64,000 nt of DNA from assembly GCF_040954645.1 (NCBI RefSeq), contig NC_092810.1, positions 10,526,377-10,590,376 on the forward strand. The letters run 5' to 3'. How positions within the stretch are numbered: position 1 is the stretch's first letter; each line of letters opens with the position of its first letter. Position numbers and translations under genes: made by a program. Origin of the DNA: Diabrotica undecimpunctata. Lineage: Eukaryota > Arthropoda > Insecta > Coleoptera > Chrysomelidae. The notes beneath the pieces are model-generated. The model had not been told where the DNA came from. It was given only the letters and a program-made list of their open reading frames with translations, and did no database searches. Positions 3,121 through 44,888 of the stretch are shown here, piece after piece.

Positions 3121-4740
3121 CATTTCATCATTATATGTCCACTGAGGAGACTTTTTTGCTTTCTACTACATTTTGTAAACGTTTGTTAGAGACATTAAGA
3201 GTTTTCATTACAAGCAGTTTACATACTCTAAAACTTTCCAGATTATACACACATGACACCCATTTCTTGCTAACTGCATTTAGTTTTTTTCTTTTTATAG
3301 GCTCAGACTGTATGGATCGATTTAGAAAAGCTGTTTGGAGATTCCAGTGCTCAATGCTCAATACTCTTTACAAATTGAAAGTCTTGATTCTTATGAAATA
3401 ATATTGTTACATGTATTCCGAGTACAGCAGACCAAGATGATGCAAGTACTAAAAAAAGCAGGAATTAACAACCAAGATCTGAAAAAATTTGAAATCTTTA
3501 CTGGAATCAGACAGCAAATCTCAGAGTTGAAGGTGAACACACTGACTATGTGAAAATCATGCGTGGAGTGAGACAAGGCTGTATTTTGTCTCCTCTAATC
3601 TTCAATCTGTACTCTGAAAGAATATTTATCGTAGCTTTGCACGAAACTGAAAATGGTATTATATATAAAGCTACTAAATGGTTACCGACTAAACAACATC
3701 AGATATGCAGATGACACCATAGTATTTGCGGACAATTTAAAAAACCTACAAGTTCTTATAAACAAAATCACGTATTACAGTCAACAATATGGACTCAATA
3801 TAAATGTTAAGAAGACAAATCTTATGATAATTAGCAAGAAAAGGATAACAGAAGGTCAACCCTACGTCAACCAATCCCCTGTAGAAAGAGTGACGCACTA
3901 CAACTACCTCGGCACCATAATAAATGAAGAATGGACCAACAACCAGGAGATTAGAGCACGCATCGGAAAATCTAGATCCACCTTCAATCGGATGGGGGCC
4001 TTTTATAAGAGTCACAACCTCTCTCTTGATACAAAAGTAAGAATGCTGCGATGCTACGTCTTCTCTGTCCTTTTTTATGGTGTTGAATCGCGGAACTTGA
4101 ACGAAGATATGTGCAGAAAACTCGAAGCATTTGAGATGTGGCTATATCGGGGAATACTTAAGATCCCGTGGACTGACCGAGTCACAAATGAAGAGGTCCT
4201 CAGAAGAATGAATAAGAACCGAGAGGTACTGACCACCATCAAATCTCAAAAGTTACAATTCTTCGGACATGTTATGCGAAATGAATCCAGATATGCTCTT
4301 CTTCAAGCCATCCTGCAAGAAAAAATATTTGGAAAACCAGATCCAGGAAGAAGAAAAGCATCTTGGTTAAAGAACTTCAGAATCTGGTTCAATACAACAT
4401 CTGTGCAGCTTTTCCGCGCTGCTGCAGATAAGATAAAAATTGCCATGATGATCGCCAACATTCGTAACGGATAGGCACATCAAGAAGAAGACATTTATTC
4501 CAACAATGATGACTTTCAAGTTCTCGTAACTTTTTCGCTTCATGCGTATTGTGTTTTTTGTCCATGTAAGCTTCACCGGAATTTTTTGCTATTTTAGCCC
4601 TGTTTTTTCCACTTATCTGGCCTCCGAATCTTTTTCTTGCCAGTCTGCTTTGGTGGTGGAAACGCATTAGCAGGTACATCCTCTGCTATTGGCTCCGTAT
4701 TCCGCAAAGAAACAAAACGAACTCTTCTTAAAAACATTGC
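3121..4740 (-). pseudogene. DUF7869-like transposase relic split by a LINE
   Basis: Two minus-strand pieces flank a LINE. The right piece (about 4740-4490) encodes a lysine-rich stretch with RRPDKWKK, then after a frame change AKIAKNSGEAYMDKK and a Cys/His segment (HHCWNKC). The left piece (3361-3131) encodes KKWVSCVYNLESFRVCKLL and MKTLNVSNKRLQ. This pattern resembles the N-terminal part of the DUF7869-type proteins represented more completely at 32.3-40.4 kb. The identification rests on remembered family patterns. No C-terminal domain is seen, so only a relic remains. Confidence 0.45.
3370..4486 (+). mobile_element. Family A LINE, 5'-truncated, RT half onward
   Basis: A decayed RT segment (GVRQGCILSPLIFNLYSE near 3570-3620) is followed by a 273-codon frame (3653-4474). 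That frame contains the catalytic YADDT motif, YLGTIINEE, GVESRNL, EAFEMWLYRGILKIPW, LQFFGHVMR and WLKNFRIWF, and ends in MIANIRNG just before an AAGAAGAAG tail (4480-4488). The frame opens only after the GVRQGC block, so the element is coding-dead. It is the longest plus-strand family A frame here and interrupts the transposase relic on the opposite strand. Confidence 0.85.
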
Positions 4741-14503: not shown

Positions 14504-17500
14504 TTACAGCGTCATTCGTTCTTCTACTTTTTCATCGTCATCTACTACAGACTGCTTCGAAGACTCATCGCTTTCTATAAATACCTCGTGATTGACTTTA
14601 AGCTTCTCTGAAGAGTACGGCGTCCATAAAAGACACCTAAAATTATTAAAAACACAAATAAACACAATGTAAAATTTATATGAACTAAAGCGATGAAAAA
14701 CAATTCATCTGGACACAATCAAGTAAAGTAACAGCCTTGCTGATATCTTAGAATAGTAGTGTACAGAAAATATTTACTATTCAAGATAATAAATTAGTCA
14801 AAAGATGGAAAAAGTTTGAAGGGTGTAAACAATTTTAATTCCTAGCTAAATGCTTTCGATTTACAAAGCCATCTTCAGAGCTATGCCACAATACAAAAAC
14901 AATGTAAATTACTAATTTTAATTTGACAACGATTGACTTACGTCAAATATTAGTGTAATCTAATTTATTAAATATATAAGAACATTATACCTGGTAATAA
15001 AAGAACCGCTCCTTTTTGGTTTCATTGTGTAAACATCTCTTATTAGTGCTGCAAAATTTTCTTCCAGTTGTTTAGGATCCATGGTTAACTGAAATATTTT
15101 AGGAAAATTAAAATCTACACTTAATTCACATTCACTTAATCTGTATTTAAGATGTGTTTTTATTTGATGAGTGTCAGATCAGTAGGTTATGATTACGGTC
15201 ACGGGGCTCTAGGCACAATGTATGGAGTATGGAGACTCTTTGTCAGTTGTCACTACTGGTCAACGTTTGTTAGAACATGAATTCTTGGAGACTTTGTTAA
15301 AAAGTATGTTTAACTAAATGTATTTAACTCAAAAAAATAAAAAAGGAATGCATGGGTATGGACATATACGACATTCTGATGCACTAAATAAAATAAAAGA
15401 AGTAATTATGTCAAGTAGTGTGCTTGCCAATTTCAATGAGAAGTTACCAACTGTGATACAGACTGACAGTAGTAGTAATGGCTTGGGGTGTTGTCTCTTA
15501 CAGAATAACAGACCAGGAGCATTTGCATCTAGGGCGCTAACGACAGCAGAGTCAAATATGAGTCAAATTGAAAAGGAGTTCTTGGCAATCCTATATGCAT
15601 GCAATAAATTTCACAATTTTATCTACGGAAGGAAAGTGCAAATTGATTCTGACCATAAGCCTTTGGAGGCATTAATGCATAAAGGCATTGCGGACATAAT
15701 GTCGCCGAGATTACAAAGGATTAGGGTAAGATTATCTAAATATGACATAGATGTAAAATTTAAGCCAGGCAAGTTCATGCATGTGGCAGATTTATTATCG
15801 AGGAATTTTATAAAAGATGAAGTGGATGATGATAAATTTATTACAGAAATAGTTCATACTATTAACATGACTGATGAGAAGAGAGAACAATTTAGGACTG
15901 AAGTGGATGCTGATGAGGATCTGAAACTAGTAAAGAAATATTGTATACAAGGGTGGCCCAAAACCTTGTCAAGAGTAAGTGATTCAATTAGGTATTATTA
16001 TTATATAAGAAATGAACTATATTTACTTGACGGACTAATATTTTACAAAGACAGAGTTATAGTCCCAAAAATATTGAGAGAGAGCATGCTAAGATTATTG
16101 CATTCGAGTCATTTTGGCATTCAGAAAACCAAACAGAGAGCAAGACAGATATTACATTGGCCACAAATGAACAAAAGTATAGAAGACTGGGTAAGAAATT
16201 GTAGCAAGTGTGAGATATTTAAAAGTCATAATGCTAAAGAACCACTATTACTTAAAGAGTTGCCTCAAGCACCTTTTGAAAAGGTAGCAAGTGATATATT
16301 AGATTATGGTGGACAGTCATATCTAGTTCTGATCGATTATTTTTCTAAATGGCTCGATATAGTGAAAATTAATTCAAAAACTTCTCAGGTGGTCATCAAG
16401 GAGTTAAAGAAATTTTTTTCAACGCACGGAATACCCTCTTCTTCTTCTTCAAGTGCCCTGTCCGTTGCGAACGTTGGCTATTAACATGGCAATTCTGATC
16501 TTGTTTGCGGCGCTTCTGAATAGTTCGACCGATGTGAGCCCGAACCACTTCCTCAGATTTTGAAGCCACGAGTGTCTTCTCCTGCCTGGCCCTCGCTTAC
16601 TGTCTATTTTTCATCAGATAACATGCCTTATAATTCATGGCATTGTCACCAATTTGCTAAAGACTGGGATTTTCGGTTTGTAATGTCCAGTCCCCGCTAT
16701 CCACGGTCTAATGGACAGGTAGAACGAGCCGTTCAAATTGCAAAAAACATGCTTAGAAAGTGTGACGACTTAGATATGGCGCTCCTGGAGTATCGCAATA
16801 CTCCAATAAATGGAACAGATAAAACACCGGCCCAATTAGTGACTAACAGGGTTCTTAGATCGAAGCTACCATCAAATAAAAAGCACAAAGACATAAATCT
16901 AAAGGAAGAGTGGGAGAAACTAGAGGCAAAAAGAAACGAATATAAAAATTATTATGATAGAAACACCAAGGTAAGAAGAGAAATAGTGCCAGGAGAGAAT
17001 GTAGGTGTCAGAGAGGGTAGAGAATGGAGACCAGGTAAAATTCTGGAAAAAGTAGATGAGGCACCCAGATCTTATTTAGTGCAGAAATAAAATGGGGAAG
17101 TGGTCAGGCGAAACAGTTATCACTTGAGGCCTTCCCTAGTTAAAGCGAAAATTAAGAAGAATACTGATTTTGCACATAATGATAGATCATAAAACTCCTC
17201 ATCTGGGAATCAGAGTTGTGGAGTAGAGGAACCTTCAACCTCCCACATGAATGCTGAAAATAGAACTAGTGCTAGACTCAAAAGAGCTCCAGTGCGTTTT
17301 AAGGACTATCAAATGTAAGCGGAAAGATGTCATATCAGTAGGTTATGATTACGGTCACGGGGCTCTAGGCACAATGTATGGAGACTCTTTGTCAGTTGTC
17401 ACTACTGATCAACGTTTGTTAGAACATGAATTCTTGGAGACTTTGTTAAAAAGTATGTTTAAATAAATGTATTAAACTCAATGAAATATTATTACTATGA

Positions 17501-32220: not shown

Positions 32221-32705
32221 AACTAGTTGCATAGCAACGACAGTTAACAGGGCGTGACAATTTTACGTCATGTTTTGTTCTTTTCGTCTTTCGCGGCAGT
32301 TTATGTCAAGATGAGTTCGAGTGAAGAATATTTGTGTGACGATCTGTTAAAAAAAAACCAAGAAACGACAGAAAATTGGTCGAACTGCAGATGTAATGAA
32401 AAAGTTAAGATTGCAGGCTCACGAGTTAGGAGATGATTGTAAGTGTAAAAGACTGAAGTGTTTTGAAAACACTACTGCTCAAGAGAGGCAAAACATACTT
32501 AACGGATTCAATCAACTAGGATCAATTGATGCTCAAAACTGTTATTTAGCTGGATTGATTGCTGTATTGCCAGTTGTAAGACGAAGGTCACGACAAGTCG
32601 ATGGAGAACAACACCATGATGCTACCTACCGCTACAGAGTACGAGTGAAGAGAGAAAACATAGAAGAAATATCTGTCTGCAGTAGTGCTTTTACTGCAAT
32701 GCATG

Positions 32706-33088
32706 TGTTGTGAATTTATTAATTGTTAAGTCTTTAATTTATAATGTCTTGTTCTTATCTTAATTCATTAAAAAGCACAATGACTGATATTTATTTATTT
32801 TCACTAAACATACATAATTTATTAAAAAGCGAACGTAACATTTTATCGCGAGCGCGTCGTCCGAATTAACTGTGTCTTCCAAATAAAGTTCCGTTATTAT
32901 ATACCAGTGCCGTTATCTCGAATCGTCTAAAACCTTCGATGGCGAAACGGTAAAAGCAAACTGGATTTCCCTCGCATCGCTTCTGGAAGGTCGCTCAGGT
33001 AAATCGAGGCCTCTCGTAAACTCTACAACATATTAGATTAAAAACATGTTTTAAAGGTTAAAACTATGACTCATATTTTTACGTAACA
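32706..33088 (-). repeat. 3' LTR (383 bp)
   Basis: Apparently identical to 38629-39011. On the coding strand it follows the polypurine tract and contains the stop codon of the polyprotein frame. Confidence 0.93.
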
Positions 33089-36000
33089 TTGCCCCCCTCT
33101 CAAAAGATGGTTCCTCCTGGAACCTTGTTGGGACTAGAACTGGAACGGTATGCTGGTATCGGCAACTGGACCCACTTTTACAACTTCCAGTTGTATAAAA
33201 ATGACAAGGGACGGTTTTCTCTCCGCTCCAGTAACTATGCGGATTGCAACAGACTAACACCTGGACTTCGGTGTCTTTAAAGATCTCCTCCACCATATTT
33301 CGGATAACCCTCCAATCTAATTGGCGGCACTCCAACTTTGGCATGGCTAACTTTTGCACGTCGGACTCTAGTACGTGCCCTCTCAATTGAAGTAAGGCTT
33401 CCCATACATCTCGGTAGGTAGGTTGGTCACGGGCAGTGTCTTTTGTTACCAGGTAGAAAAGGTAACGTGATGCATCTTGGAGTTTCAAGGTTTTACCGGG
33501 AGCTGGCACTTGGCATTGAAGTTCTGCAACTCGACCAAACTTCCTTCGAAAGACGGATGCCAACCCTGGTGCGTCTTTGATACTGGCCGGGATGGTAAGG
33601 GCCAGCGAGTAGTCATCGGGGAGCTCGAGTAGATCTTGCTTTTCTTCAGTGGTAACACCATGTCTCGCTTTACCGGTACCTCCATAGGCACCCATGAATT
33701 CCTCAAACGTGAGGTCAAACACATCTTGGACTTGGTTTACTTCCACTTCTTCATCTACGTCGTGGTCACCTTCGAAAGATGCCAACCGGTTATGGTGTAC
33801 TATCATCGGCTTTCCCCTCGGAATCTTGCTTATTCGGTAGATGACATCGTTGATCTTCTCCATGATGAGGTATGGACCTTCCCAAAACTGCTGCAATTTG
33901 GGAGAACAACCTTTTCGCTTCTTGGGATTATACAGCCATACTTTGTCGTTCTTCTTAAAGCAACCCTTTTCGGCTTGTGTATCGTACCGTTTCTTCATTC
34001 GGTCGCTAGCGATCTGAAGGTGGGAACGGACCAACTCATGTACATCGTCCATTCTTCTTCGTAATTCGATCACATAATCTTCACCTGCTACATCTTCTCC
34101 AGGTCGACACCCAAATTCTAGATCACAAGGTAGTCGCATTTCGCGTCCGAATAGGACTCTGGCTGGTGTCTGGCCCGTTGATTCGTTAACAGCAGATCTG
34201 TAGGCCATTGTGAAGAACGGAAGGTATTGGTCCCAGTCTCGCTGATGATCGGACACCATCTTTGTCAAATACTTGCCAACTGTCCTATTCATTCGTTCTA
34301 CCATACCATCCGATTGCGGATGATACGCGGTAGTTCTTGTTTTCTTCATGCCTAGTCTATCACATATTCCTTGGAATAGATCACTTTCGAAGTTCCTGCC
34401 TTGGTCACTATGGATCTCCAAAGGCACTCCAAATCGGCTGATATATTCTTGGATCAACTTATCTGCAACGGTGGCGGCCTTCTGGTCTGGAAGTGCGTAA
34501 ATCTCGACCCACTTAGTGAAGTAATCCATTACTACCAACATGTACTTGCCCCCATTTTCACTTTCTGGAAATGGCCCTGCAATGTCCAAAGCTATTCTTT
34601 CAAACGGGCTTCCAACATTATATTGTCTCATAGGAGCTCTCCTTTTCCGGTGAGGCCCGTTACTCGTAGCACAAATAGTACATTTCTTACACCAGTCTTT
34701 TACGTCGTCGGAACTGTTCATCCAATAAAACCGTTCCCGAATTCGCTGAAGGGTTTTCCTTACACCAAAATGCCCTCCCGATGGACTGTCGTGTAACTGA
34801 CGAAGTACTTCGGCTATTCTGCTCTTTGGGATCACCAACTGTCTTCTCTTCTCTGAACCGTCATCATTTTCCAGGACTCGTTTAAGCAAGCCATCTTCGA
34901 TGATAAATGAGTCCCACTGGGCCCAATACGTCTTAACTACTGAGCATAGGTTTGATATTTCCTGCCAAGGTGGTCGACGGTTTTCCTCTTTCCATTTTCG
35001 GATTTTCTGTATAACTGGATCTCTCTCTTGTTCTTCCCTTATCTTAGTAGGCGTCCAGTCGTCGTTGACAATCGTCGTTCTTAGCACTGCTGCTTCCTTG
35101 GATTCCGTTTTGTTGCAGTGGGGACACTCTGCTGGGCATGGCCGTCTGGAAAGAGAATCAGCGTTTCTGTGGCTAACTCCGGCTCGGTGCTCAATCTTAA
35201 AATCGTATTCTTGGAGTCGTTCGATCCACCTGGCTATCTGACCCTCTGGATTCTTAAACTGCATCAACCACTTAAGGGCGGCATGGTCGGTTCGGATTAA
35301 AAACTTCCTTCCATAGAGGTATTGATAGAAGTGCTCTACTGATTTCACTACTGCCAGAAGTTCTCTTCTCGTGACGCAATAATTCCGCTCAGGTTTTGAA
35401 AGAACTTTACTAAAATATCCGAGGACTCGTTCCTGTCCTCCTTGAATCTGAGACAGCACTCCTCCAATTCCCACATTACTTGCATCTGTATCTAAGATGA
35501 ACTCTCCTTCTGGCAGTGGATACCCTAAAATTGGTGCTGTTATTAAATGCTTTTTCAAGGTCTCAAAGGCATTTTGGCAGTCTGTATCCCAGCGGTAATC
35601 TCTTGCTTCCTCCGTAAGTCGCGTTAATGGCTTAGCGATATCTGCAAACTTCTTAATAAACCTCCGGTAGTAAGTACATAGTCCAAGAAAACTTCTCACT
35701 TGATGTTTGTCAGTTGGTTTTGGCCATTCCTTAATGGAATCGATTTTTCCCTTATCCACGGCCACTCCTTCTTTACTGACTATATGACCCAGATAATTGA
35801 CTTTACCTTGAAATAGCTGGCACTTCTTGGGGTTTAGCATCAATTGGGCAGCTTTAAGTCGATTAAAAACGTTTTCTAAATTCCTCAAATGATCTTCGAA
35901 TGTCTCCCCCAAGACGATTATGTCATCTAAATAAACCAGGCATGTTTTCCAAGATAACCCTCTCAACACATTTTCCATAAGCCTCTCAAATGTCGCAGGA

Positions 36001-38558
36001 GCATTACAAAGACCAAATGGCATAACGTTGAATTGCCACAATCCAGATCCTGTGGTGAAGGCTGTCTTTTCTTTATCGACTGGGTCCATTTCTACCTGCC
36101 AGTATCCAGACTTCAAATCTAAAGTAGAAAACAATTTACTTCCAGCCAATGTGTCCAATGTGTCATCGATCCGAGGCAGAGGATAACTATCTTTCTTGGT
36201 AACGTTGTTCAGCAAACGGTAATCCACACAGAACCTCGTCGTTCCGTCTTTCTTCTTAACCAGGACCACCGGAGAGACCCATGGACTCGTAGAAGGTTCT
36301 ATCACCCCGTCTTTCTTCATTTCCTGAACAATCGTTTCAGCTTCCTCTCTCTTCGCCTGTGGTAATCGTCGAGCTGTTTGACGAATTGGCTTAGCATTAC
36401 CAGTATCAATTTTATGCTTAACAACGGTAGTTCTTCCCGTCTTTCCTCCTTTCGGTACGAAAATATCACGATACTGCCGAAGAAATTCCCTTAATTTCCT
36501 TTTCTCCATCTGATTTAGAGACTGTCCTGCAACTGCAACCATTTGGTCGAATTTGTCGTTGGAATTATCAGATGTTGTCGCCTGACGAATTATGGATGTC
36601 ACAGGTACACAAGTTCCTACTTTTGTCTCTTTCTTTATGGTCACTGGGTAGTCGTTGACATTGATAAGTCTCACAGGAATTTCTTTAGCCGAAGTCACCA
36701 ATTCCTTTCCAATTATGATTCCACGGCCAACCTCATCGTCGTGGTTCCAAGGCTCCATCATAACAGGTCTCCCTTCGTCTACAATTCCCTGTAGTCGCGC
36801 TACTATGATCGTTTCGCTTCTTGCAGGCACGACTGTATCTTCTGTAATGGCTGCTTGCACAGTGTTGTCATTATGTGGATGGAGAAATACCTCCTCGTTG
36901 CCAACTTTGATTACCTTATTCTTAAAATCCAATTGGAATCCATGCATATTCATTACGTCCATTCCTAATATAACATCCTCTTCGATGTCAGCAACTATAA
37001 CAGTATGGACGAACTTTTCTGCTCCAATTCCCAATTGTACCTGGATTTCTCCATGAATGTTGGCATTTTCACCTGTAGCGGTCCGAAGTCGCAACCTCGT
37101 TGGTAACAGTTTCTTTCGGCTGTTTATAACTGTCGGGCGTATGATGGTTCTGGTCGCTCCGGTATCCACCAACAACGTATGCTTTTTACCATTTATGTCT
37201 CCATCTACATATACACTATCTTCACGACATTTCAAAGAAGCTATTAGTATAAGAGGGTCTTTGGAAGAGTTCCGGGTCGAAGCTGCCCCCCTAAGGTTGA
37301 CTCGTTCTGGTTTTCCTGATGGTGAGTTTCTTGATTTTATGGTCTTCTTTTTCTTGCATGTCATGCTTTTCATCAAATTAAAGAGCTGGTCAAGTTTATC
37401 TTCGTCTCCTTCCTCTTTTACAGTCCTAACTTTACTGTACCCGCCAGAGGCCTGCGTAGCTGACTCGTATTCGAGGGCGGCGGATAGGACATCAACCAGC
37501 GTCTTGTGACGAGCTAATCGCAGTGTTCTCTGCATTTCATGATCACGAAGACCATCAATAAACGTTTGAACGGCCAATTTTTCCATCATGTCTTCGGGAG
37601 CTGTTGGATAAGCATATCGTACTAATCTGGCAATATCTACCTCATATTCTTGAAGAGCTTCATCTTTCTTCTGTCTACGATTTTTAAGCTGTGACTGATA
37701 TACATGCTCCAAATGTTCGTGGCCATATCGCATATTTAACCTCTTCTTCAGTTGTTCGAAATCATCGGTCTCCTCTACGGCTATGGTCTGAAGCACATCT
37801 AAGGCATCTCCTCGAAGAGCGATAGTCAGGTTTACAGCCTTTTCTTTTTCAGACCATCCATTTGCTCTTGCGGCTGATTCGAACTGTTTCATGTAGTTGT
37901 TCCATGATGATTTTCCGTCGAAAGTTGGGACTTTAACATGAATAGAACCTCCACTTCCTTCAAATTTCGGCCGTGTCTCCAACTTAAATTTCGTCTCGTC
38001 TTCTTTTATCTCCACTGTAATCGGATTGTTACCTCTCTCTGCTGTCCCTGTTTCTTCCATCTTCCTTTCCATCTCTTTAATCTTTTCTTCGAAGGCCAAC
38101 TTATCGGCAGCAACTTGGTTTTTTAGCGAAGACACTCTATCGTCAAGAGCAGATATTTCAGAAGTGACTTTAGAGATGTTAGCAGAAACTTTGCTTTCCA
38201 GAGAAGAAATCTCGTTAGAAACTTTGCTTTCTAAAGAAGCGATGTCGCCGGATACTTTGTTCTCCAATGATGCGATGTCGCCGGAAACTTTGGCTACATC
38301 AGAAGACACTTTCGAAATATCGTCGGAAACTTTGTTCTCTAATGATGCGATGTCGCCGGAAACTTTCGAAATCGACGAGAGGACAGCATCATGTTTGTCT
38401 TCAAATATATAAGTCTCTGGATCTAGTCCTTCTTCTAGCAAAGCGTTCTTTAGTCGTTGGACTAACTCAGCCTTTTTTCCGGTAGAAGCTAATTCTCTGT
38501 CTTCAAGATGTCTTCTTAAATTAGTCACTGTCAGCTCATAAATCGTAGCCATTTTCAC
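33051..38558 (-). CDS. Gag-pol polyprotein with SAP-like, macro and CCCH domains
   Basis: A single 1835-codon frame. Approximate domains are: SAP-like helix-extended-helix 7-45 (LRRHLEDRELASTGKKAELV); coiled coil 58-175 with repeated KVSGDIASLEN units; gag capsid-like region 205-390; retropepsin with LLVDTGATRTII near 463; RT with FCVDYRLLNN and YLDDII near 875; RNase H (LDTDASNVGIGG) near 1019; integrase HHCC 1254-1294 and D1321, D1383, E1418, a DD35E spacing; and an integrase C-terminal region. A macro domain follows at about 1645-1756 (SIKDAPGLASVFRRKFGRV, SRYLFYLVTK, QPTYRDVWEALLQL), then a C-x7-C-x5-C-x3-H zinc finger near 1783-1801. There is no gag CCHC knuckle and no gag/pol frameshift. 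The frame stops 38 bases inside the 3' LTR. Catalytic motifs look intact, so activity is plausible. Confidence 0.93.
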   Translation of the reverse strand: MKMATIYELTVTNLRRHLEDRELASTGKKAELVQRLKNALLEEGLDPETYIFEDKHDAVLSSISKVSGDIASLENKVSDDISKVSSDVAKVSGDIASLENKVSGDIASLESKVSNEISSLESKVSANISKVTSEISALDDRVSSLKNQVAADKLAFEEKIKEMERKMEETGTAERGNNPITVEIKEDETKFKLETRPKFEGSGGSIHVKVPTFDGKSSWNNYMKQFESAARANGWSEKEKAVNLTIALRGDALDVLQTIAVEETDDFEQLKKRLNMRYGHEHLEHVYQSQLKNRRQKKDEALQEYEVDIARLVRYAYPTAPEDMMEKLAVQTFIDGLRDHEMQRTLRLARHKTLVDVLSAALEYESATQASGGYSKVRTVKEEGDEDKLDQLFNLMKSMTCKKKKTIKSRNSPSGKPERVNLRGAASTRNSSKDPLILIASLKCREDSVYVDGDINGKKHTLLVDTGATRTIIRPTVINSRKKLLPTRLRLRTATGENANIHGEIQVQLGIGAEKFVHTVIVADIEEDVILGMDVMNMHGFQLDFKNKVIKVGNEEVFLHPHNDNTVQAAITEDTVVPARSETIIVARLQGIVDEGRPVMMEPWNHDDEVGRGIIIGKELVTSAKEIPVRLINVNDYPVTIKKETKVGTCVPVTSIIRQATTSDNSNDKFDQMVAVAGQSLNQMEKRKLREFLRQYRDIFVPKGGKTGRTTVVKHKIDTGNAKPIRQTARRLPQAKREEAETIVQEMKKDGVIEPSTSPWVSPVVLVKKKDGTTRFCVDYRLLNNVTKKDSYPLPRIDDTLDTLAGSKLFSTLDLKSGYWQVEMDPVDKEKTAFTTGSGLWQFNVMPFGLCNAPATFERLMENVLRGLSWKTCLVYLDDIIVLGETFEDHLRNLENVFNRLKAAQLMLNPKKCQLFQGKVNYLGHIVSKEGVAVDKGKIDSIKEWPKPTDKHQVRSFLGLCTYYRRFIKKFADIAKPLTRLTEEARDYRWDTDCQNAFETLKKHLITAPILGYPLPEGEFILDTDASNVGIGGVLSQIQGGQERVLGYFSKVLSKPERNYCVTRRELLAVVKSVEHFYQYLYGRKFLIRTDHAALKWLMQFKNPEGQIARWIERLQEYDFKIEHRAGVSHRNADSLSRRPCPAECPHCNKTESKEAAVLRTTIVNDDWTPTKIREEQERDPVIQKIRKWKEENRRPPWQEISNLCSVVKTYWAQWDSFIIEDGLLKRVLENDDGSEKRRQLVIPKSRIAEVLRQLHDSPSGGHFGVRKTLQRIRERFYWMNSSDDVKDWCKKCTICATSNGPHRKRRAPMRQYNVGSPFERIALDIAGPFPESENGGKYMLVVMDYFTKWVEIYALPDQKAATVADKLIQEYISRFGVPLEIHSDQGRNFESDLFQGICDRLGMKKTRTTAYHPQSDGMVERMNRTVGKYLTKMVSDHQRDWDQYLPFFTMAYRSAVNESTGQTPARVLFGREMRLPCDLEFGCRPGEDVAGEDYVIELRRRMDDVHELVRSHLQIASDRMKKRYDTQAEKGCFKKNDKVWLYNPKKRKGCSPKLQQFWEGPYLIMEKINDVIYRISKIPRGKPMIVHHNRLASFEGDHDVDEEVEVNQVQDVFDLTFEEFMGAYGGTGKARHGVTTEEKQDLLELPDDYSLALTIPASIKDAPGLASVFRRKFGRVAELQCQVPAPGKTLKLQDASRYLFYLVTKDTARDQPTYRDVWEALLQLRGHVLESDVQKLAMPKLECRQLDWRVIRNMVEEIFKDTEVQVLVCCNPHSYWSGEKTVPCHFYTTGSCKSGSSCRYQHTVPVLVPTRFQEEPSFERGAMLRKNMSHSFNL
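33089..33106 (-). promoter_or_regulatory. Polypurine tract
   Basis: The minus strand reads TTTTGAGAGGGGGGCAA immediately before the 3' LTR. The G-rich purine run is also read as codons of the polyprotein, an uncommon overlap. Confidence 0.75.
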
Positions 38559-38610
38559 AATTTATTTTATATTCACTTGTATTATTATTATAAGTCTAAT
38601 TTATGTTCGA

Positions 38611-38626
38611 TCTCACTCTGACACCA
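38611..38626 (-). promoter_or_regulatory. Primer-binding site
   Basis: TGGTGTCAGAGTGAGA on the minus strand begins two bases after the 5' LTR. It starts with the TGG that pairs with a tRNA CCA end. The specific tRNA is not identified. Confidence 0.75.
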
Positions 38627-38628
38627 TT

Positions 38629-39011
38629 TGTTGTGAATTTATTAATTGTTAAGTCTTTAATTTATAATGTCTTGTTCTTATCTTAATTCATTAAAAAGCA
38701 CAATGACTGATATTTATTTATTTTCACTAAACATACATAATTTATTAAAAAGCGAACGTAACATTTTATCGCGAGCGCGTCGTCCGAATTAACTGTGTCT
38801 TCCAAATAAAGTTCCGTTATTATATACCAGTGCCGTTATCTCGAATCGTCTAAAACCTTCGATGGCGAAACGGTAAAAGCAAACTGGATTTCCCTCGCAT
38901 CGCTTCTGGAAGGTCGCTCAGGTAAATCGAGGCCTCTCGTAAACTCTACAACATATTAGATTAAAAACATGTTTTAAAGGTTAAAACTATGACTCATATT
39001 TTTACGTAACA
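38629..39011 (-). repeat. 5' LTR (383 bp)
   Basis: Apparently identical to 32706-33088. It should contain the promoter of the element, whose transcript runs leftward. Confidence 0.93.
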
Positions 39012-40621
39012 CATGGTATTACTAGATCTAAGTTGGTTCATATTCAAGCATCTCTGAAAACATCCGGACTTGCTCCTGTCGACAAAAGAGGAAAGCATTC
39101 TTCGAAACATCGTCAGTTAACTTCTGATTTAAGTAACCAAATTCAGCAACATATTGCTTCATTTCGGGGCAGGTTAAGTCATTATAGCATTCAGGACTCG
39201 AAAAAAGTGTATTTAAGTGAAGAGTTAAATATTATGAAAATGTTTCAAATGTTTAAAGAAAAGTATCCTATTGCATCTGTTTCATATGACACGTACCGAA
39301 ATATCTTTAATAACAAATTCAACATTTCATTTGGATACCCAAGGGCAGATACCTGTAGCAAGTGTGATGAGTTTAATGCAAAAATCAAGACTTTTCATTC
39401 TGTTGACGATGCAGCACAGATAAAAGCTCTATCTACTGAAAATAACTTGCACAAAAGACGTGCCCAAGTTTTCTATGATAGAAAACGAGCTGCCCGAATA
39501 AAAGCTAGGAGAACTTTTGAATATGAATCAATCGTCATGGACTACCAGAAAAACATTTCGCTACCCAACATCAGCACTAACGATGTTTATTATAGGAGAC
39601 AACTTTCTATGTTTTCTTTCAACATTCATGTGCCGTCTTCAGGAAAATCCTGTTTTTTTACATATCCTGAATATGTGTCAAGGAAAGGATCCGACGAGGT
39701 ATCATCGTTTCTCTTCTATTTCATTTTTAATGAACTACCAACAGAAGTCCGTCATCTTCACATTTTCTGCGACTCAGCTGGTGGACAAAATAAAAATTTC
39801 ACAGTTGTTCGGCTACTTCATTACATTGTCCATGACATAAAGCGTCTAGATACTATTCAAGTTACATTCCCCATTAGAGGACATTCGTATCTAGAATGTG
39901 ATAAAAACATGGGCTTGATAAATTTGAAGACTAAGATGGAACTACCCGTAGATTGGATATATGTGTTAAAAGATACAAGAAAAAAGCCGGAACCGTTCAA
40001 AGTTATAGACGTGGACCAGACATTAACGAAACAGTGGACTACATTTCTCCAAGAAAAATTTATTCGTAAGTGTCCAATAGCTCTGCAACAAGTAAGAGAA
40101 CTTCGATTGGTGAAAGACAAACGCGGATTGGTTTTTTACCGAACCACTTTTTATGCCACCCATAATGGCATTTGGGAAAGCAAGCAAATAACAGGTAGAT
40201 CAATAAAATCTGTTGTTCCAAGAAAAATGAAAGATGGCGAATTTGAGCTACCAAGTCAAGCATACCATAGACCATTACCGATTTCCCAGGCTAAGTACAA
40301 CGATTTACAAGTTTTAAAACGATTTTGTCTTCAAAATGCTCAAGAATTTTACGAAACATTGCTATACAAATGAAAAATCTCTGTGTAGGCTTATGTAGAA
40401 AGTGGACAACGTTGGTTTTTAACAAGTTATTTGTGACGTTAACGTGCTTTTTTATTTTTTCAACAAAATCTAATAATGTTAAGTTCGTATTCTTTTGTTT
40501 AGATATTAATAATATAGTAATAAACTACTTAAAAATATTTGTATGCAGTTTTATTTATTTCTAAGATCATAACCAGCAGATTAGTCACGTTGATTAACTT
40601 TTCTCTGTAAGTTACTTTTGT

Positions 40622-41634: not shown

Positions 41635-42224
41635 TTTCTTGTGGCATTTTAAATTAATTACTATTAAAATGGGAATAAGCCACAATTAAAGGTTAAAATA
41701 CGTTTATTGACGTTTCAAATCGACTTCGGAAATCGTTCTCAAAATACAAACATTATTAAATTAAACAAATTTTGTTTTTTGTTACTTAGTGAAAAATTCT
41801 TCTAATAATTTAATTTTCTCTGACTCATCTATATTGACAATTCAGACATACCTTATACATTTTAAAGTAGACGACTTTAAAATGATATTGCCAATATTGT
41901 TGAGTTGCGTTCCTGGGACGACTTTACTTATAAGATAGTTCATTCGATTACATGAAATCAACTTTAACTTGAGAATATCCGTCAGAAAATATCATAACAT
42001 GTAATTCGTCTTTAAAAAGACAAACACATGCCATGATGACAGTAAAATTCTCCTGTTAGTGATTCCATAGTGAATTATGAGGGAAAAACCAGGAAAAAAA
42101 CCTCATAATACTATCCCGACATGGTAAGTATTTGATCGTGCATTTAGTTTACCTTCAATAAACACCAAATTCCGATTTTATATGTTTGTTATTTAAAAAA
42201 CATAAATAATGTATTCTCTATATG

Positions 42225-42875
42225 TTACTGACTTACCAATACTGGTATTTTCCTTTTAATAACTTCCTCTTTCAATATGGGTAACCAGATCCTACTACAT
42301 TCTGCCGAGGAATTCGCGACACAATTGGTCTCATTTAGCATAATTAGAGCCGCTTCTTTGATTTTTCTCTTTTTACCATCCGTTTCTTTTAGGACTATAT
42401 TTGAATCATTCCATTGAACCCTATGTTCATTATCCCATGCGTGTTTACAGATTTGAGATCTATCAAATTCTCTATTTTTAATATAGGATTGATGTTCACG
42501 TATTCTAACATTTAATGGTCTTGATGTTTCACCTAAATAAAACTGATCGCATTCACAAGGTATTTTATATATGCAATTCTTTGTCCTTTCTTGTTCATTG
42601 TTAGGTTTGGTTTTGGACAAAATAGATCTCAACGTGTTTGTTGTTTTGAATGTTGTTGAAATGTTGAATTTATTTCCTATCCTTTTAAGCTTTTCAGATA
42701 ATCCTTTTATGTATGGTATTGTTATTTTCCTCGTATTATTCCTTGCATATGCTGTAGGATCTCGTTCTAAGTTGTTTTGTTCTATTCGATCGATTGTTGA
42801 AAATTCCTTATTTATAAACGATAAAGGATAATCATGTTTTGATAAAACAGATGTTAAAAAATGTTTTTCCTCCTT
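42225..42875 (-). pseudogene. Penelope C-terminus with GIY-YIG endonuclease
   Basis: The frame carries a linker (FINKEFSTIDRIEQNNLE, IPYIKGLSEKLKRI) and then a complete-looking GIY-YIG domain: CIYKIPCECDQFYLGETSRP, LNVRIREHQSYIK and HAWDNEHRVQW, to a C-terminal IWLPILKEEVIKRKIPVLVS. The RT domain is missing from this copy because it is truncated at the inverted junction. The annotated methionines are not native starts. Confidence 0.85.
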
Positions 42876-44025
42876 GTAGTGAACTATCAAAATTTTTATT
42901 AAATATTTTAAAACCAATTGCAAATAAAAATGGCACATTTATAAAAAATACACAACATTTTTTAAATAAATTATCAAATATTGAATTTAATTCAAATAAT
43001 ACTTTAGTAAGTTTTGACATAAATAGTTTATTTACGAATGTGCCATTAGATAAGACTTTAAACACAGTCAAGACAAAATTAGAAAGTGATGATACATTGG
43101 CAACTAGAACAAGACTAAATATATCAGCTATAATGGAGTTAATAACATTATGTACTGATAATACATACTTTCAACTAAATAATGAATTCTATAAACAAAG
43201 TTTTGGACTAGCAATGGGCTCTAGTTTATCTCCATTATTAGCCGATAAATTTATGGAAGATTTTGAAACAAATATTATTTCTAAACAAAATTTAAAACCC
43301 TCAGTATGGTGGAGATATGTAGATGATGTATTCTCAAAATGGCCTCATGGATCAGAGTTGTTGGACACATTCCTAAATGATATAAACGATAAAGAAGAGA
43401 CAATAACATTTACCATGGAAAAGGAATATAATAACACATTACCTTTTCTGGATGTTTTAATCTCTAAGAACGATACTGGATACGAAACTCAGGTGTATAG
43501 AAAACCAACACACACCAACAGATATTTAAATTTCAAATCAAATCACAATATTAATATTAAAAAGGGAATTATTAAATCCTTATACGATAGAGCCAAAATT
43601 ACTTGTTCTAACGAAAATTCGTTCTTGGAGGAAAAACATTTGTTAACATCTGTTTTATTAAAAAATGATTATCTTTTATAAATAAGGAATTTTCAACAAT
43701 CGATCGAATAGAACAAAACAACTTAGAACGAGATCCTACAGCCTATGCAAGGAATAATACGAGGAAAATAACAATACCATACATAAAAGGATTATCTGAA
43801 AAGCTTAAAAGGATATGATAATGAACATAGGGTTCAATGGAATGATTCAAATATAGTCCTAAAAGAAACGGATGGTAAAAAGAGAAAAATCAAAGAAGTG
43901 GCTCTAATTATGCTAAATGAGACCAATTGTGTCGCGAATTCCTCGGCAGAATGTAGTAGGATCTGGTTACCCATATTGAAAGAGGAAGTTATTAAAAGGA
44001 AAATACCAGTATTGGTAAGTCAGTA
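42876..44025 (+). pseudogene. Penelope RT with broken endonuclease
   Basis: The RT core is well preserved: NTLVSFDINSLFTNVPLDKT, QSFGLAMGSSLSPLLADKFM, WWRYVDDVFSKW (catalytic YVDD) and LPFLDVLISKN, ending at a stop at 43679-43681. Comparison with the minus copy shows a small deletion that caused this frameshift. A second deletion of roughly 240 bases removes the GIY-YIG catalytic segment between LKRI and DNEHRVQW. The N-terminus is truncated at the inverted junction. Confidence 0.85.
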
Positions 44026-44888
44026 ACATATAGAGAATACATCATTTATGTTTTTTAAATAACAGACATATAAAATCGGAATTTGGTGTTTATTGAAGGT
44101 AAACTAAATGCACGATCAAATACTTACCATGTCGGGATAGTATTATGAGGTTTTTTCCTGGTTTTTCCCTCATAATTTACTATGGAATCACTAACAGGAG
44201 AATTTTACTGTCATCATGACATGTGTTTGTCTTTTTAAAGACGAATTACATGTTATGATATTTTCTGACGGATATTCTCAAGTTAAAGTGGATTTCATGT
44301 AATCGAATGAACTATCTTATAAGTAAAGTCGTCCCAGGAACGCAACTCAACAATATTGGCAATATCATTTTAAAGTCGTCTACTTTAAAATGTATAAGGT
44401 ATGTCTGAATTGTCAATATAGATGAGTCAGATAAAATTAAATTATTAGAAGAATTTTTCACTAAGTAACAAAAAACAAAATTTGTTTAATTTACCAATGT
44501 TTGTATTTTGAGAACGATTTCCGAAGTGGATTTGAAACGTCAATAAACGTATTTTAACCTTTAATTGTGGCTTATTCCCATTTAAATAGTAATTGTCTTA
44601 GTTTCAAAAGATAATAATTTTAAGATTATTATTTAGATTATTTGGAAAGATACTTAATGTTTTCTTAGCCAACAGTTCTTTACGAATCTGTACTGTTGTT
44701 CCCTAATGTTAGTATATACAGTACATTCAACTTACACCTCTAAACGATTAACACCTTAAGCGTCATTTGCATCCTATTAGATACAAATGACTTTGATCAT
44801 TTTTGGCCACCTGTATCCAGACGGATACAAATGAATATGTTCACTTTAGGCTAGATGAATTCAAAAGAATACAAGGTTTTGTATTTAA

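Follow-up and report, generated by a model that had tools for sequence, protein, structure and literature searches.

A TARG1-type macro domain behind the integrase of an insect Ty3/gypsy lineage, with different catalytic residues lost in two Diabrotica families

Chromoviruses carry chromodomains behind their integrase. Here, we analyzed a Ty3/gypsy (Metaviridae) element of the leaf beetle Diabrotica undecimpunctata, located in a stretch of 64,000 nucleotides (contig NC_092810.1, positions 10,526,377 to 10,590,376 of the forward strand) that is called the window below. The element shares with its class the order protease (PR), reverse transcriptase (RT), RNase H and integrase (IN), long terminal repeats (LTRs), a 4-bp target-site duplication and a C-terminal addition to the integrase. 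This addition occupies the same position as in chromoviruses but consists of an ADP-ribose-type macro domain followed by a CCCH zinc finger instead of a chromodomain. The closest described protein is TARG1 (OARD1 or C6orf130), an ALC1-type hydrolase; unlike TARG1, the domain in the window is borne on a retroelement, between integrase and CCCH finger, and its family lacks the GxG loop with Asp125. In passages of PMC9967889 and PMC6397177, K84 of TARG1 is described as the attacking residue and D125 as the residue that resolves the lysyl adduct. A passage of PMC6397177 also gives TKx(30,35)Px[IL]GxGxD as the pattern of TARG1 hydrolases and describes loop 3 as phosphate binding as well.

Macro domains on other mobile or parasitic genomes are less similar in context. 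A passage of PMC4977317, citing Basta et al. 2009, mentions that endogenous retroviruses of fish carry an open reading frame (ORF) for a macro domain, and this passage was the only relevant one among the matches listed for literature on macro domains (A1pp) in retrotransposons, gypsy or LTR elements. These are likewise retroelements with an acquired macro domain, but, according to the citing passage, they are vertebrate retroviruses in which the domain forms an additional ORF. The macrodomain of DarG, the antitoxin of DarTG, belongs to a bacterial toxin-antitoxin context. Macro domains of alphaviruses and of insect-borne viruses, among them VP8 of Kadipiro virus, also place the fold on a parasite genome, but these are RNA viruses without an integrase fusion; in a model-based structure match, the VP8 domain (BFVD A0A8E0KJF2) was 34% identical to the domain in the window. 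The capture of a host domain by a Ty3/gypsy element is of a known kind; what is new to us here is the macro domain itself and its fate.

A sequence-only reading of the window had proposed a TARG1/OARD1-type macro domain at residues of about 1645 to 1756, fused to a Ty3/gypsy polyprotein, and both proposals held. The gag-pol frame (33051-38561, minus strand) comprises 1836 codons, encodes PR, RT, RNase H and IN in Ty3/gypsy order according to Pfam, and ends with residues translated from the polypurine tract and the start of the LTR. The macro domain matched the TARG1 structure 2eee over its whole length (E 1.3e-21; query residues 43-183 against 2eee residues 4-146), and the predicted structure had the three-layer macro fold. 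A first model, based on a 7-row alignment, was poor overall (pLDDT 59), and TARG1 nonetheless ranked at the top. In the Pfam scan, the window protein gave no match to the profile PF01661 at E ≤ 1; the identity of the domain is thus based on the PDB sequence matches and the fold. Among 10 relatives scanned, the protein P0025 passed PF01661 (32.7 bits, cut-off 22) together with PF22938. A chance match was rejected in view of the PDB matches and the many copies. The CCCH finger matched PF00642 at 23.6 bits (cut-off 20.5) and the CPSF4 chain 6fuw at E 1.3e-5.

The same reading had placed a Lys at the catalytic position of TARG1 and had noted a shortened loop for the catalytic Asp. The alignments agree on both points: Lys 1707 corresponds to K84, and the GCGLD loop of TARG1 is replaced by EC--R (followed by Q). 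We then searched the 1.743-Gb assembly with the C-terminal 249 residues of the window protein, and 150 of 6170 first-look candidates were scored. All 150 were at least 98% identical to the query and are referred to as family A; a stop inside the matched stretch was found in one of them and in none of the other 149. The window copy and seven others had eight different 3' insertion flanks. In the genome, 67 other family A copies were read; all of them kept the Lys and lacked the Asp loop. Since the GxGxD loop, judged by inspection, is absent from the window and from each of these 67 copies, the window protein was classified as TARG1-derived and not as a TARG1 hydrolase.

A second family, B, was found with the Aromia domain as a query (of 5100 candidates, 150 were scored, at 46-47% identity, and 12 loci were taken) and with human TARG1 (4771 candidates, 150 scored). 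In all 20 distinct copies obtained with the two queries, Arg replaces K84 and the loop Asp is kept. These copies were 95-99% identical to one member, L010, over the stretch, and the copies read also finish in a macro domain and a CCCH finger. One locus, L033, matched human TARG1 better than all element loci and has an intact Lys and GCGLDRLDW within a 760-codon host frame; it is evidently the beetle's own TARG1 gene. L033 (C3:100934209-100934595, minus strand) has a long charged N-terminal part and, judged by eye, an apparent second, degenerate macro domain behind the first.

A search for elements with the same C terminus in other beetles had been suggested, and relatives were found in other leaf beetles and in a longhorn beetle. 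Protein searches gave 1, 7 and 57 proteins, including stand-alone fly TARG1s, and the named sources of the relatives were Diabrotica virgifera, D. balteata, Gonioctena, Leptinotarsa, Psylliodes, Aromia, Nilaparvata and Macrosteles; P0021 is a D. undecimpunctata protein. Among 22 proteins examined with regular expressions, 11 (including P0006 of Aromia and P0015 of Leptinotarsa) joined the macro domain to integrase C-terminal sequence in a single predicted protein, 9 had the complete linker motif FMxxYxxxxKxRxGVT, and 10 had a tail peptide that was read, from the protein alone, as a translated polypurine tract. In the hemipteran pieces P0007, P0024, P0026 and P0027, integrase was not found by this approach; they were counted as element domains because they grouped with the integrase-bearing P0019, P0020, P0023 and P0025. 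The macro-bearing lineage is present in beetles and, judging from the tree, probably also in Hemiptera (plant-sucking bugs). A scan of viral contigs gave 28 stretches that matched a pattern, none of which was confirmed as a relative by tblastn. P0019, P0020, P0023 and P0025 have no CCCH finger, and LGQNSLKEG near the end of the last three was read as a translated polypurine tract.

The tree was built without the catalytic columns from 23 element domains and 13 cellular domains, with the human row chosen as the root. Fragments, near-duplicates and redundant fly proteins, 27 of the 57 proteins in total, were left out (P0005, P0008-P0011, P0028-P0030, P0032, P0034, P0035, P0037, P0040, P0041, P0043-P0045, P0050 and P0052-P0060). 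The 23 element domains were separated from the 13 cellular TARG1s by a branch with support of 98/96. A single capture is the simplest reading of this tree, with which the branch is consistent but which it does not prove, the human root being a choice. The beetle's own TARG1 came out nearest to the element domains, with weaker support (90/86).

Both catalytic residues, Lys and loop Asp, are present in 14 of the 23 element domains. Five have the Lys and a deleted loop (the window, P0002, P0003, P0004 and P0012), three have Arg (with the loop Asp in L010 and Glu in P0017 and P0021), and the loop of the Leptinotarsa protein P0015 is shorter by 3 residues. Among the cellular domains, the Lys was found in 13/13 and the Asp in 12/13. 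Outside the tree, P0029, P0030 and P0050 resemble family B and have TRK, and the Nilaparvata fragment P0028 has Asn in place of the loop Asp. Families A and B are neighbors in the tree (91/84) and lost different residues, so that their common ancestor most simply had both.

From sequence, fold and tree, it is almost certain that an insect Ty3/gypsy lineage captured a cellular TARG1-type macro domain, which came to lie at the very end of pol, after the integrase C-terminal domain. The ancestral element domain likely still had both Lys and Asp, and it probably acted as an ADP-ribosylhydrolase. Since the catalytic pair is broken differently in families A and B, the domain in the window most likely can no longer complete hydrolysis. 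Our best overall explanation, which we hold tentatively, is that a captured hydrolase became a reader or tether on the integrase in Diabrotica. In such a scheme, a host domain would have been captured once and placed behind the integrase C-terminal domain, where the ancestral hydrolase could have freed the integration site or element components of ADP-ribose. Family A would then have lost the Asp loop and family B would have swapped Lys for Arg, with the domain kept in both; the resulting module might bring the integration complex to ADP-ribosylated chromatin or protect it there, with the CCCH finger as the putative contact to nucleic acid. It is possible, if somewhat short of even, that the domain is maintained in this chromodomain-like role, binding ADP-ribose or protein. 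Each family consists of closely similar copies that retain the domain and have lost one catalytic residue, a pattern consistent with conversion into a reader or anchor, and the suggestion in the sequence-only reading that the domain may bind rather than hydrolyze fits the different residues lost in the two families.

Selection was examined by counting shared and singleton variants, nonsynonymous (N) to synonymous (S). In the macro domain of family B, singletons were 44N:20S (pN/pS 0.62) and shared variants were 8N:13S (0.17; p 0.019). For family A, macro counts in a 48-copy set were biased because these copies had been picked by protein similarity of that region, and 21 sequences (20 picked by integrase, plus the window) were used instead. 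The RNase H-integrase stretch of the 48 copies is free of this bias and was taken as the standard for comparison (52N:24S among singletons, 11N:27S among shared variants, p 0.0001). Purifying selection is thus supported for family B and possible for family A.

Several results weigh against a retained reader. The family B copies were chosen with macro-domain queries; the family A macro test was not significant (single 19N:15S, shared 4N:5S; pN/pS 0.38 and 0.24), nor was the test over the whole stretch (single 34N:17S, shared 4N:6S, p 0.16). The CCCH finger showed no constraint, with counts that were too few (family B: shared 4N:2S, single 4N:4S). Between the window and P0002, identity was 68% in the macro domain, 93% in RT and 86% in the integrase core. 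The eight insertion flanks seen are diverse and do not point to tethering. Finally, the phosphate-binding glycines sit in the loop that family A lost, and loop 1 is altered as well (SLALTIPAS against SLAHC), so that ADP-ribose binding itself by the family A domain is unsure and may be weakened.

A serious rival explanation is that all ADP-ribose chemistry has decayed, since loop 3 takes part in phosphate binding too. The captured domain would then be a decaying passenger, unneeded for this chemistry, and would persist only because its fold spaces the CCCH finger or because the frame extends to the 3' LTR. Several lineages (A, B, P0015, and P0028 with its Asn) have altered catalytic loops, the macro domain changes faster than RT or RNase H, and the nonsignificant family A test points in the same direction; however, P0002, P0003 and P0012, at 58-71% identity, retain the fold, the Lys and the linker motif and show no further indel within the domain, and the shared changes in family B are mostly silent. 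We consider this account doubtful, though worth serious attention. An active eraser would act like viral macro domains and counter host ADP-ribosylation of element RNA, DNA or proteins, the Lys alone or another residue being sufficient in family A; we consider this unlikely for the domain in the window. Such activity is likely in the wider lineage, where 14 of 23 domains have both residues; macro domains are carried by insect and other viruses, the Lys persists in all 67 family A copies read, and a passage of PMC9967889 describes the Lys of DarG as essential, with an unclear mechanism. Against it, the Asp loop is missing in family A and the Lys in family B, each a family whose copies are closely similar, and the loss of one residue in each is not expected if hydrolysis pays. 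The earlier idea that the element counters host ADP-ribosylation is a guess, more plausible for relatives in which both residues are kept than for family A. An assembly error or a chance host-gene insertion into a single copy has virtually no probability and is already refuted by the presence of the domain in the 67 family A copies read, the 149 of 150 stop-free matches and the relatives in other insects.

Within the reader or tether reading, a Lys without the Asp might trap substrate. A bolder version is quite improbable: host ADP-ribosylation would be read as a chromatin address, and a host hydrolase would have been turned twice, by different mutations, into a non-releasing anchor of the integrase, possibly covalent in family A. 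The finding links LTR retrotransposons to the host ADP-ribose system, otherwise studied mainly in DNA repair and viruses. As the lineage forms a natural series from an intact to two differently broken active sites, eraser and reader can be told apart with small purified domains. It is also a warning that some "OARD1-like" proteins in insect databases are retrotransposon pieces. Similar pieces are contained in seven D. virgifera proteins (P0004, P0005, P0008, P0009, P0017, P0029 and P0060), of which four are named OARD1-like, two uncharacterized and one tachykinin-like peptides receptor 86C; they represent annotation errors or exon capture.

Features of the element in the window (window coordinates; for the Pfam domains from the integrase C-terminal domain to the gag capsid region, residue numbers were moved by 2 to match the full frame)
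Feature	Position	Strand	Evidence or remark
Target-site duplication CATG (Ty3/gypsy)	left 32702..32705, right 39012..39015	.	both sides identical
3' LTR, 383 bp	32706..33088	-	TGTT...AACA ends; 100% identity with 5' LTR
Polypurine tract AGAGGGGGGCAA	33089..33100	-	adjoins LTR; translated in frame by the ORF (..ERGAM..)
gag-pol-macro-CCCH single open frame	33051..38552	-	ATG at 38552; stop within 3' LTR
CCCH zinc finger C-x7-C-x5-C-x3-H, residues 1786-1804, CPSF4-like	33150..33206	-	
TARG1/OARD1-type macro domain, residues 1635-1771	33249..33659	-	sequence and fold matches
Shortened loop 3 (MPKLECRQ), without TARG1 GxG and catalytic Asp	33321..33344	-	alignments
Lys 1707 codon, equivalent of TARG1 nucleophile K84	33441..33443	-	alignments
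Linker, motif FMxxYxxxxKxRxGVT	33660..33716	-	alignment; common to a good part of element domains
Integrase C-terminal domain, GPY type	33804..33878	-	PF22938
Integrase core	34317..34604	-	PF00665, E 3e-13
Integrase zinc-binding domain	34659..34832	-	PF17921, E 5e-21
RNase H	35205..35513	-	PF17917, E 2e-34
Reverse transcriptase	35778..36260	-	PF00078, E 2e-38
Aspartic protease	36948..37208	-	PF13975, E 7e-11
gag capsid region	37542..37826	-	PF03732, E 1e-7
SAP domain, gag N terminus	38439-38534		Pfam 25.4 bits, cut-off 23.9 (barely above)
Probable primer-binding site TGGTGTCAGAGTGAGATC	38609..38626	-	starts with TGG, two bases behind 5' LTR
5' LTR, 383 bp	38629..39011	-	LTR comparison

The two identical LTRs and the CATG duplication indicate that the insertion is recent. 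Among the loci L001-L008, the LTR measured 383 bp in four and 405 bp in four, giving at least two lengths. Two forms occur in both families. In one (L021 and L022 in A, L028 in B), gag ends with a CCHC knuckle and pol lies in a different frame; in the other (the window, in region 37200-37400, L023 and L024 in A; L031 and L032 in B), gag-pol is fused and has no intact knuckle. The fusion with loss of the knuckle is parallel in the two families. Frame length in the 150 scored family A copies was 1795-1870 codons in 43, 1415-1432 in 70 and other in 37. Two copies on the same strand, at C7:141294171 and C7:141300116, lie 5945 bases apart and may form a tandem with a shared LTR; a further copy, at C7:79941860, lies inside a 3393-codon open frame. 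In gag (38185-38292), a 33-bp tandem repeat encodes the coiled-coil-like KVSxDIAxLE, and its length varies between copies (L023 versus L024). Other mobile-element pieces were seen in the window at 3635-4471, 15318-16481, 38985-40370 and 41656-44594; they include RT fragments, RNase H and an integrase zinc domain from a different gypsy-like element, a sub-threshold DUF7869 match and a large inverted repeat surrounding an RT fragment.
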